A stretch of 64,000 nt of DNA from Sagittula marina (GTDB lineage Bacteria > Pseudomonadota > Alphaproteobacteria > Rhodobacterales > Rhodobacteraceae). The position numbers and the translations under genes are program-made. Shown piece by piece: positions 33,476-40,159 of the stretch; within the stretch, counting starts at the first letter, position 1; every line of letters starts with the position of its first letter. Below the pieces are notes generated by a model. The model made no database searches and was not told the origin of the DNA. It was given only the letters and a program-made list of their open reading frames with translations. The stretch covers positions 124,001 to 188,000 of the forward strand of contig NZ_JACIEJ010000005.1 in NCBI RefSeq assembly GCF_014196795.1. Direction: 5' to 3'.

Positions 33476-34149
33476 GAGTCCATGATCCCGTGGTTGCTGC
33501 GATTTGTCCTCGGTATAGGCAACCAAACCCGTTAGGGCGAAGTGATTATTGCCGCATGTACGTAAAACTCTGTGGTTTTTGCAGTTTGTGATCACGGCCA
33601 GAAACGCTGTGATCACAGGCGGCCAGTGCAGCTATGCGTTGCATCAACGAATCACTTTACGTGGATCTTGGGTGGTAAGCCGCAGAAGAAAGAGCCAACT
33701 GTCGAACGCTTTAACGTGCCGGCCAAGCTGGGCGTCGTGCGCTCGGAACGGGACGCCGCGGGATCTTGGTGATGTTATCAATTTACAGGGCTCAGCATGT
33801 CGCGATGCCCATGAATCCGGACGAGGCCGCGCGGAAACGCCCTGCGTCTGAGAGCACTGCTGACCGTCGTTTTGAGGATGTGGGGGGTGCGTTTTGGCCA
33901 CTCGCGGACGTGCGGCACAGGCTGGCGCGGATTTGCACCAGATGATTCCGTCTCGACCTGGGGGACGGAAGCAAAGGCTCGAGGTGCTCGATTTGATTCC
34001 GCGTCGGCTTGGGAAGGTTTTCACACCTGCACCCTTGTAGATGATGTCGACCTGTTCCTGACCAGTCTGGATGCGCACTGGTCTCAAACCCATCCGTAGT
34101 TTCAAAATCTGGCCGCTGACCAATGATCCCATCCGGCTGGTCCTGAACG
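33476..34149. other. Long intergenic region between mdh and sucC
   Basis: About 670 bases without a convincing gene. Open frames in it lack ribosome sites and show no family-like sequence. It holds the tandem operator-like element at 33585-33617 and the sucC promoter region. The middle part (33640-34140) is unexplained. Confidence 0.6.
33585..33617 (-). promoter_or_regulatory. Tandem GTGATCAC element upstream of sucC
   Basis: In the sucC direction: TGTGATCACA, 7 bases, TGGCCGTGATCACAAA. The two GTGATCAC cores start 21 bases apart, about two helical turns. All 26 bases of the two blocks and the 7-base gap length recur upstream of sdhC (40010-40042). The near edge is 109 bases from the sucC start. 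Regulator unknown. Confidence 0.75.
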
Positions 34150-34183
34150 AAAAAAGCCGCCGGACAGACCGGCGGCTTTCGTA
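34150..34183 (-). terminator. Rho-independent terminator after mdh
   Basis: AAAGCCGCCGG (34153-34163) and CCGGCGGCTTT (34169-34179) form an 11-bp perfect stem with loop ACAGA. Read from the minus strand it is followed by six T, directly behind mdh. Confidence 0.93.
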
Positions 34184-34201
34184 TTGGATCGAATGACGGA
34201 T

Positions 34202-35164
34202 TTACGCCAGTGAGCTGTCGATAGCTTTGCAGGCTTCGACCAGACCTTTGACCGCTGTCACCGAGGCATCGAACATCTCTTGCTCTTCCTTGGTGAGCTT
34301 GATGTTCACCACACGCTCGATACCGCCAGCGCCGATCACGGTCGGCACGCCAACGTACATGTCCTTTACGCCAAGGTCGCCATCACAATGGGCGGCACAC
34401 GGCAGGACGCGTTTCTGGTCCTTCAGGTAAGCTTCGGCCATCTCGATCGCGGAGGTCGCGGGCGCGTAGAAGGCGGAACCGGTCTTGAGCAGACCAACGA
34501 TTTCCGCGCCACCGTCACGGGTGCGCTGAACGATCGCGTCCATCTTTTCCTTGGTGGTCCAGCCCATCGAGATCAGGTCGGGCAAGGGGATGCCCGCGAC
34601 GGTCGAATAGCGCAGGGAAGGCACCATGGTGTCGCCGTGGCCGCCGAGAACGAAGGCTGTGACATCTTTCATGGAAACGTTGAATTCTTCCGCGAGGAAG
34701 TGACGGAACCGTGCGGAGTCAAGCACGCCAGCCATGCCACAGACTTTTTCCGTGGGCAGGCCGGAGAACTTTTGCAAAGCCCAGACCATCGCGTCGAGAG
34801 GGTTGGTGATGCAGATGACGAATGCGTCCGGCGCGTTGTCGCGGATGCCTTCGCCGACGGATTTCATGACTTTCAGGTTGATGCCCAAAAGGTCGTCGCG
34901 GGACATGCCAGGCTTGCGCGCGACACCGGCAGTGACGATGCAAACGTCGGCACCCGCGATGTCGGCGTAGTCCTGAGTGCCCTTCAACTTTGCGTCAAAG
35001 CCCTCGGAGGGGCCGGATTCGGCGATGTCGAGCGACTTGCCTTCGGGTACGCCTTCGGCGATGTCGAAGAGGACGACGTCGCCCAGTTCTTTCATTGCAG
35101 CGAGGTGGGCAAGTGTGCCACCGATCTGACCTGCGCCGATGAGGGCGATCTTGGGTCTGGCCAT
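34202..35164 (-). CDS. mdh: Malate dehydrogenase (LDH-type)
   Basis: A 320-residue NAD-dependent malate dehydrogenase. The dinucleotide site is GAGQIGG (10-16), the mobile loop is RKPGMSR (83-89) whose Arg87 region selects malate/oxaloacetate, NPLD follows at 121-124, and the catalytic His is H176 in [13 protein letters not shown] lies upstream of the ATG. The terminator behind it at 34150 indicates it is transcribed separately from sucC. Confidence 0.97.
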
Positions 35165-35321
35165 GGAATGTATCTCCGGTCCTGCTTGAATTTGGCAATT
35201 TGCTACGCCGCTTGGCCGCGCAACGCAAGAGCGCGGCAGTGCAGCATTGTTGGTGTTAGGGCTACCACCAAGAGGTGTACAAAGTTATAGCGCTGAAAAT
35301 ACAGCGCGTTTAGGGGGCGGC

Positions 35322-38260: not shown

Positions 38261-38264
38261 TCCC

Positions 38265-38468
38265 ATGAAACTATACAGATTTCTGTCTTCTGACGACACG
38301 TCGGAGTTCTGCCACAAGGTTACAGGCGCCCTGAACAAGGGCTGGGCGCTGCATGGCGATCCCACCTATGCCTTTGACGCGGCCAACGGCGTGATGCGCT
38401 GTGGACAGGCCGTGGTGAAGGAGGTTGAGGGCACCTACACACCAGATATCAAATTGGGAGAGCAGTGA
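38265..38468 (+). CDS. DUF1737 small protein
   Basis: A 67-residue protein with the DUF1737 pattern: MKLYRFLSSDDTSEFCHKVT, then LNKGWALHGDPTYAFD and AVVKEVEGTYTP. Function unknown. Start is 4 bases after nnrU; its stop overlaps the mch start, so it is translated with mch. Confidence 0.85.
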   Translation: MKLYRFLSSDDTSEFCHKVTGALNKGWALHGDPTYAFDAANGVMRCGQAVVKEVEGTYTPDIKLGEQ

Positions 38469-39496
38469 TGCAAAAGACCAATCCGGGGCGTTTCTTTGAG
38501 GACTACGAGCTCGGGATGGTGATCGATCACGCCGTGCCTCGGACGGTTTCGGGCGGGGAACGTGCGCTTTATCACGCGCTTTATCCCATGCGGCACGCAC
38601 TGTATTCCTCGGATGAGTTCGCGCGTGACTGCGGGCTGCCGGCGGGTCCGCTGGACGATCTCGCGGCTTTCCACATCGTCTTTGGCAAGACTGTGCCGGA
38701 TGTGTCGCTGAACGCTGTGGCGAACCTTGGCTATGCCGAAGGTCGCTGGCTGAAGCCGGTGTGGCCGGGGGATACGCTGCGGGCGTCGTCTGAGGTGATC
38801 GGACTGAAGCAGAACTCGAACGGGCGCACCGGCGTTGTCTACGTGCATTCCAAGGGCTTCAATCAGAACGACGAATGCGTGATGGAATACAAGCGCTGGG
38901 TCATGCTGCGCAAACGCGACAACGATGCCCCCGCACCTGAGACGGTGCTGCCGGATCTCAAACCCGTGCTGGCCCCCTCGGATCTGGTGATCCCCGAGGG
39001 GTTGGATTTCTCTGGCTACGATTTCACGCTGGCAGGGGAGCCGCATCGCCTGGGCGATTATGAGATCGGTGAAAAGATCGACCATGTGGACGGTGTCACG
39101 ATCGAGGAAGCCGAGCATATGATGGCGACACGGTTGTGGCAGAACACGTCGAAGGTGCATTTCGATGTCACGGCGCGGCCTGACCAGCGGTTGATTTACG
39201 GTGGGCATGTGATCTCCATGGCGCGTGCCTTGTCGTTCAACGGGTTGGCGAATGCGCAGATGATCGTTGGTCTGAATGGGGGCGCGCACGCGAACCCCTG
39301 TCTTGCCGGGAGCACGGTAAAGGCGTGGTCGGAAGTTCTGGACAAGGCAGAAACGAATGCCCCCGGTGTCGGCGCGATCCGCTTGCGCCTGGTCGCCACC
39401 AAGGGCGGCAGCCCCTTCGAACTGAAAGGCGCGGATGGCAAGTACCTTCCGGACGTTCTTTTGGATCTCGATTACTGGGCGTTGATGCCTGTCTGA
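38468..39496 (+). CDS. mch: Mesaconyl-CoA hydratase (beta-methylmalyl-CoA dehydratase)
   Basis: A 342-residue protein of two hot-dog folds (MaoC type): first GRFFEDYELGMVIDHAV, second IGEKIDHVDGVTIEEAEHMMATRLWQNTSKVHFD. It hydrates mesaconyl-CoA to methylmalyl-CoA in the ethylmalonyl-CoA pathway. Length and neighbours match Mch of R. sphaeroides. ATG at 38468 follows GGGAGAG and overlaps the DUF1737 stop. Confidence 0.93.
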   Translation: MQKTNPGRFFEDYELGMVIDHAVPRTVSGGERALYHALYPMRHALYSSDEFARDCGLPAGPLDDLAAFHIVFGKTVPDVSLNAVANLGYAEGRWLKPVWPGDTLRASSEVIGLKQNSNGRTGVVYVHSKGFNQNDECVMEYKRWVMLRKRDNDAPAPETVLPDLKPVLAPSDLVIPEGLDFSGYDFTLAGEPHRLGDYEIGEKIDHVDGVTIEEAEHMMATRLWQNTSKVHFDVTARPDQRLIYGGHVISMARALSFNGLANAQMIVGLNGGAHANPCLAGSTVKAWSEVLDKAETNAPGVGAIRLRLVATKGGSPFELKGADGKYLPDVLLDLDYWALMPV

Positions 39497-40159
39497 CCTA
39501 AACGGGGCACCGCACTGGAGCACCTGACGAACGCCGGCGTTGGTTGGCAAGTCTGCTTAATCAGCAAAAAGTTGAAGCGCGAGATAGATCGTGGTTGCGC
39601 TTCTCTTTTAAGTGCCTCTGCCAACACCGGCGGGATTTCTTTGAGACCTCCCGTCGACCTCCGGGATGGAGACGCGCTGTGGACAAGGACGCTATGCGAA
39701 AAGGTGCCTTTTTCAGCTGCTTGGGGAATTGTTCGACTGGGCCGCTGTCAGCGATGCAGTCAGGTCCTCCGCGTCAATGTGTGGGATGACCGCTTTGGAA
39801 GGCAAGGAAAGCAATCCTTTTGGCAGACTTGGACGGGACCGTAGGTTTCGGCAGGCCACTGGTGTCGGTTTTGAGGCCCTCGTTCGAGGCGCAATCAGCT
39901 GTGCGGCGCATGCCGCGTTGCGGCAATTCGGCAGGTACCTGATAAAAATAATCATGAAACAAGGCGCTTTGGCAGAGTGATTCTGATTGGCGGATGTTGT
40001 CGCTCAAAATGTGATCACACCATTGGTGGCCGTGATCACAAAAGGCTATTTTGAACAAACTGCGCTAAAAAACCACGTGTCTTTCCCCCTCCAATGGGTG
40101 ACAGAAGGTGAAAACCCACTAGAACGACCAACAACGGACCAAAACCGAAGGACGACGCC
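39497..40159. other. Long intergenic region between mch and sdhC
   Basis: About 660 bases without a convincing gene. Several short frames exist on both strands but none has a ribosome site or family-like sequence. It contains the tandem GTGATCAC element at 40010-40042 and the sdhC promoter. AACGCCGGCGTT near 39531 is a perfect 12-base palindrome without a T run. Confidence 0.6.
40010..40042 (+). promoter_or_regulatory. Tandem GTGATCAC element upstream of sdhC
   Basis: TGTGATCACA, 7 bases, TGGCCGTGATCACAAA: the same 26 bases and spacing as upstream of sucC. The near edge is 117 bases from the sdhC start. AAAAACCAC also follows both copies 10-35 bases downstream, possibly part of the promoter. 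Confidence 0.75.

Follow-up and report, generated by a model that had tools for sequence, protein, structure and literature searches.

Paired Palindromes Upstream of sucC and sdhC in Sagittula marina as Predicted AkgR Operators Conserved Across the Family

The Locus and Its Tandem Elements

The 64-kb stretch of Sagittula marina DNA analysed here, referred to as the window (positions 124,001 to 188,000 of contig NZ_JACIEJ010000005.1), carries genes for 2-oxoglutarate dehydrogenase, succinyl-CoA synthetase and succinate dehydrogenase. The element in question is a tandem of two short palindromes, which stands once upstream of sucC and once upstream of sdhC (Table 1), in front of the sucCD/2-oxoglutarate dehydrogenase and sdh operons, both of which are predicted targets of the regulator AkgR. 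Each element consists of two GTGATCAC palindromes with a core-to-core pitch of 21 bp, and both copies match the 33-bp pattern TGTGATCACA-N7-TGGCCGTGATCACAAA without a single mismatch. No match to this pattern at up to three mismatches was obtained in 100 dinucleotide shuffles of the window, and no third copy was found at the same threshold in the window or in the rest of the 5.04-Mb genome. The distance from the last core base to the start codon is 112 nt for sucC and 120 nt for sdhC. The initial annotation had described identical elements upstream of both genes, with cores 21 bases apart, ends about 110-120 bases before the start codons and no further copy in the window, and all of this was borne out.

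Table 1. Predicted regulatory elements and genes in the window
Feature	Position	Strand	Remarks
Predicted tandem operator before sucC	33588..33616	-	distal core 33609-33616, 13-nt spacer, proximal core 33588-33595
Predicted tandem operator before sdhC	40011..40039	+	distal core 40011-40018, 13-nt spacer, proximal core 40032-40039
Promoter-like GTGACA-N16-TAGAAC of sdhC	40098..40125	+	inferred core promoter
sucC, ADP-forming succinate-CoA ligase beta subunit	32282..33475	-	NF001913
sucD, succinate-CoA ligase alpha subunit	30751..31659	-	start approximate
sucA, 2-oxoglutarate dehydrogenase E1	27586..30585	-	start approximate
sucB, dihydrolipoyllysine succinyltransferase (E2)	26044..27579	-	
sdhC, succinate dehydrogenase cytochrome b556 subunit	40160..40549	+	TIGR02970
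sdhD, membrane subunit	40564..40935	+	PF01127
sdhA, flavoprotein subunit	40999..42801	+	TIGR01816
sdhB, iron-sulfur subunit	43401..44204	+	start approximate

Single cores are less distinctive than the tandem. At up to one mismatch, TGTGATCACA has four matches in the window, all within the two tandem elements, and at least four matches arose in 11 of 100 shuffles of the window, so that isolated cores are not rare by chance. Further upstream of sucC, on the same strand, lies mdh, and an open reading frame (ORF) of 162 aa without a Pfam match is situated between these two genes (33644-34132, minus strand).

Conservation of the Tandem Across the Family

The family was sampled with 198 genomes, one per genus. 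An exact tandem of the form GTGATCAC-N(3-32)-GTGATCAC is present in 176 of the 198 genera, and the same pattern read backwards, which served as a control, in none of the 198 genomes. Among 350 tandems tallied, the spacer is exactly N13 in 281, spread over 164 genomes. The detailed comparison covered 31 of the 36 genomes for which tandem positions were listed, together with the window, which gives 32 genomes and 63 tandems, located before sucC (31), before sdhC (31) and before sucA (one). Their spacer measures 13 nt in 58 cases and 12 nt in five. The tandem ends 97-154 nt before sucC, of which 97-117 nt in 25 of 31 regions, and 107-191 nt before sdhC. The initial annotation had made its proposal depend on conservation in related genomes, and the tandem is indeed conserved at both sucC and sdhC.

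Two individual arrangements deserve mention. In genome G177, the tandem (L120:1533-1561) stands directly before sucA, and no sucC match was present in the fetched stretch, so that the tandem seems to follow the 2-oxoglutarate dehydrogenase genes. Genome G135 carries three successive GTGATCAC cores (C8:374318-374367), each 21 bp from the next, which is consistent with dimers stacked along the same side of the helix.

In a sample of 385 genomes of the class, two tandems were found in each of the five family members, and 24 of the 380 genomes outside the family gave a match, with a total length of 28-30 bp in five of them. The backward control was not clean in this sample, with 41 matches in one genome and one in another. 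The tandems outside the family were rejected as members of the same system; most have other spacings, and none of the eight loci checked had a suc or sdh match within about 1500 bp.

The 63 sites also indicate which parts of the element are conserved. These are both 8-bp cores, the T preceding the distal core (56/63) and the A following the proximal core (56/63). The middle of the spacer is AT-rich: its G+C content is 29%, whereas the 60 bp on the upstream side have 56% and the 100 bp on the downstream side 49%. The TGGCC that precedes the proximal core occurs at only 3 of the 63 sites, two of which are the copies in the window, and it was ruled out as a part of the operator. The 33-bp identity is thus composed of a conserved skeleton and a likeness private to this genome. 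In other words, the earlier statement that all 26 bases match is correct for this genome but overstates the element. The three other exact TGTGATCACA sites of the genome are not evident members of a regulon, since two lie inside long ORFs and one over a start codon, the latter (L034:1501-1510, G000:C4:266492-266501) belonging to an ORF of 184 aa.

AkgR as the Likely Regulator

The initial annotation held that the regulator could not be named. A name can now be proposed from a reported motif and predicted targets, namely AkgR of Rhodobacter (Cereibacter) sphaeroides, which is presumably the product of RSP_0981 and which, according to work by Imam et al. in 2015, reportedly activates several tricarboxylic acid (TCA) cycle genes directly. 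One study gives GTGATCAC as a motif of R. sphaeroides AkgR and calls the protein an activator (PMC6365646). Another presents RSP_0981, of the GntR family, as a predicted regulator of sucCD, sdh and the 2-oxoglutarate dehydrogenase genes (PMC4344238).

An AkgR orthologue is encoded in the S. marina genome on another contig (L027:1045-1698, minus strand; G000:C2:562913-563563), where it adjoins accA. Its protein contains the GntR domain PF00392 (37.3 bits, cut-off 27) and the FCD domain PF07729 (66.1 bits, cut-off 24.3), and it is 75% identical to the AkgR of genome G051, whose nearest named match is that of Cereibacter ovatus (94%). The gene order of G051, mdh-sucC-sucD-sucA ... sdhC-D-A-sdhB-akgR, agrees with what the tags RSP_0962-0981 predict, and G051 is taken for R. 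sphaeroides on the basis of this order. In the 4.6 Mb of G051, exact TGTGATCACA occurs only within the two tandems, at three of their four cores, and the fourth deviates by one mismatch outside the 8-bp core.

Many FCD domains carry a metal-binding Asp-His-His-His set, in which Asp first and His last are usual. An alignment of 110 sequences shows residues N136, H140, H183 and D205 of AkgR to be invariant in every one of them; N136 corresponds to an Asp of 7u5q, and the other three are taken here as the equivalents of FCD metal-ligand positions. All four residues appear to sit at such positions, and with Asn first and Asp last the ligand site of AkgR may be altered.

Joint Presence of AkgR and the Tandem

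Across the 198 genera, AkgR was counted at E <= 1e-50 and the tandem as an exact match. Both are present in 173 genomes and neither in 18; four have only AkgR and three only the tandem (Fisher p 6e-19, a value that is not corrected for kinship). The four genomes with AkgR alone are G040, in which sucC and sdhC each have a 21-bp tandem deviating by one mismatch; G122, which has neither a sucC nor an sdhA match; G155, without a sucC match and without sdhC in the part of the contig before sdhA; and G147, with no sdhA match and only a partial sucC-like match (52%). Among the genomes that lack both AkgR and the tandem, no exact core was found in the 400 bp upstream of sucC in any of the 16 with a close sucC, nor upstream of sdhC in any of the 14 with a located sdhC. 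On a SucC tree of 50 rows, eight changes are required to explain the absence, and no fewer than five of these fall on supported branches. The suggestion of the initial annotation that one regulator links both operons gains support from this pattern, in which the tandem is kept at sucC and sdhC throughout the family and is absent together with the AkgR gene.

A Single Core Site Upstream of akgR

A single GTGATCAC core precedes akgR in S. marina (L027:1707-1714), 9-16 nt before the start codon, within AGTGATCACA at G000:C2 563571-563580. Of 118 akgR loci, one (L261) was dropped for too little upstream sequence, and an exact core within 120 bp upstream was found at 48 of the remaining 117. It begins 16-22 nt before the start codon in 36 of these 48, with the start extrapolated from the protein of this genome. 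The core is present at 30/30 loci nearest to the S. marina AkgR, 15/79 of the named collection obtained with a Cereibacter query and 3/8 others, counts that are not family frequencies because the two large sets were picked by likeness to two different queries.

Among the named loci, the core precedes akgR in Roseobacter, Ruegeria, Phaeobacter, Cognatishimia, Maritimibacter, Aestuariivita, Parasedimentitalea and Albidovulum, and no exact core was found at this place in Cereibacter, Rhodobacter, Gemmobacter, Tabrizicola and others. Likewise, none precedes akgR in G051 or at 64 of the 79 loci of the Cereibacter query. The presence or absence of this core takes six changes to explain on an AkgR tree. 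The position of a single site so close to the start codon would fit autorepression.

Promoter Position and Proposed Mechanism

Of 31 sdhC regions, 22 contain a promoter-like sequence, GTGACA-N16-TAnnAA, that begins 58-61 nt past the tandem, and 26 have some GTGAC or TTGAC in the stretch searched. If this sequence is the sdhC promoter, the transcription start would fall about 93 nt downstream of the tandem, with the core centres near -96 and -117. For sucC, no comparable promoter could be settled.

The reading that best accommodates these observations, and one that is very probably correct, is that the tandems are AkgR operators through which sucCDAB and sdh are activated. AkgR would be a GntR-family activator of the FCD subfamily acting on TCA-cycle genes, with one dimer bound to each GTGATCAC palindrome. 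With a pitch of 21 bp, about two helical turns, two dimers would sit on the same side of the helix and ahead of the promoter, an arrangement that fits an activator, and the bound dimers would activate both presumed operons together. Bound at the lone site immediately ahead of the akgR start codon, AkgR would repress its own gene.

Weighing the Proposal Against Alternatives

Three results weigh against this proposal. A scan with the sigma-70 consensus found no promoter in the upstream region of either sucC or sdhC. Three genomes (G019, G096 and G114) carry the tandem without a clear AkgR, even with a second query, although one of them, G096, is only 77% complete. Finally, the test of independent pairs, which takes kinship into account, is underpowered and not significant, with five pairs on supported branches and a median p of 0.125; AkgR changes in the same way as the tandem in 3.5 pairs on average and in the opposite way in none.

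Among the alternatives, the one that fares best keeps AkgR as the binding protein and takes the tandem as a repressor operator instead of an activator site. Many GntR regulators are repressors, and the lone core near the start of akgR resembles a repressor site. At sdhC, however, the tandem does not overlap the inferred promoter but precedes it, and the published description of AkgR as an activator, cited above, points the same way, which makes repression at these operons improbable.

It is still less likely that the binding protein is another GntR-FCD paralogue with the same half-site, and that AkgR merely co-occurs with the tandem. The same palindrome is proposed in PMC6365646 for PS417_07240, a protein 32% identical to AkgR, and the S. 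marina genome contains 32 GntR-domain matches. A non-family tandem was also found near a different GntR-FCD-like gene: at L271 (G344:C189:992-1020), a tandem with a 13-nt spacer lies near a gene 28% identical to AkgR. On the other hand, when 30 of the GntR loci were read with 1500 bp on each side, an exact core occurred at two, and only at akgR (L027) does it stand just upstream of the gene, the other (L029) being inside the GntR ORF. The akgR orthologue also tracks the tandem over the 198 genera, a pattern that favours AkgR over a paralogue.

A regulator of the CRP/FNR type, or CceR, is a very improbable user of the palindrome. E. coli CRP recognises TGTGA and TCACA as half-sites, but with 6 bp between them, whereas here the half-sites are adjacent. 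Matches with two mismatches to a CceR palindrome occur in 7 of 62 sucC and sdhC upstream regions against 0.3-0.5% of shuffles; they were, however, sought and located downstream of the tandem. CceR (RSP_1663), a member of the LacI family, regulates central carbon metabolism and has sdh and mdh among its predicted targets; it differs from AkgR in protein family and in motif, and the motif printed for it, GTT-N6-8-AAC, is not contained in the cores (PMC4344238). That the two copies arose by recent duplication of an upstream region and have no function is extremely improbable, and this reading was rejected. In its favour, the spacers in this window share TGGCC and are 69% identical, but sucC and sdhC spacers are on average hardly more alike within genomes (0.34, 23 pairs) than between genomes (0.32, 789 pairs), and exact tandems are as widespread as described above.

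Relation to Known Systems and Significance

Among solved structures, the best sequence relative of AkgR is McbR of E. coli (PDB 4p9f), a helix-turn-helix-type regulator of similar length (215 aa; E 4e-19). It belongs to a different organism, and its regulon differs from that of AkgR. PS417_07240, which belongs to the GntR family and regulates the deoxyribonate cluster of Pseudomonas simiae, differs in that it is described with a single palindrome, at positions -47 to -40 relative to its own start codon, and at a catabolic cluster (PMC6365646).

The closest system is the AkgR regulon of R. sphaeroides, for which the two cited sources give the same palindrome and the same predicted target operons. 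The regulator in S. marina is orthologous, but its gene lies next to accA and not near sdhB, and it is preceded by a core that has no exact counterpart before akgR in G051. It is well supported that the elements at the TCA operons represent essentially the known AkgR regulon, and the layout and evolution of the tandem are added detail to a known regulator. The 21-bp pitch, the family-wide conservation and the lineage-variable akgR site were not found in the literature searched, which did not include the primary AkgR paper.

A broader reading, whose chances of being right or wrong are about equal, is that AkgR forms a family-wide two-dimer switch of the TCA cycle, with a selectively fixed 21-bp pitch, an AT-rich hinge and cooperative binding, and with a single autoregulatory site gained or lost between lineages. 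If this is true, the two-dimer switch would give a sharp response to one metabolite at two operons, and R. sphaeroides, in which AkgR was studied, would be without a feedback loop that Roseobacter-type bacteria have. In effect, a likely regulator can be named for a conserved cis-element, and most of the family, beyond the model species, appears to place 2-oxoglutarate dehydrogenase, succinyl-CoA synthetase and succinate dehydrogenase together under AkgR.

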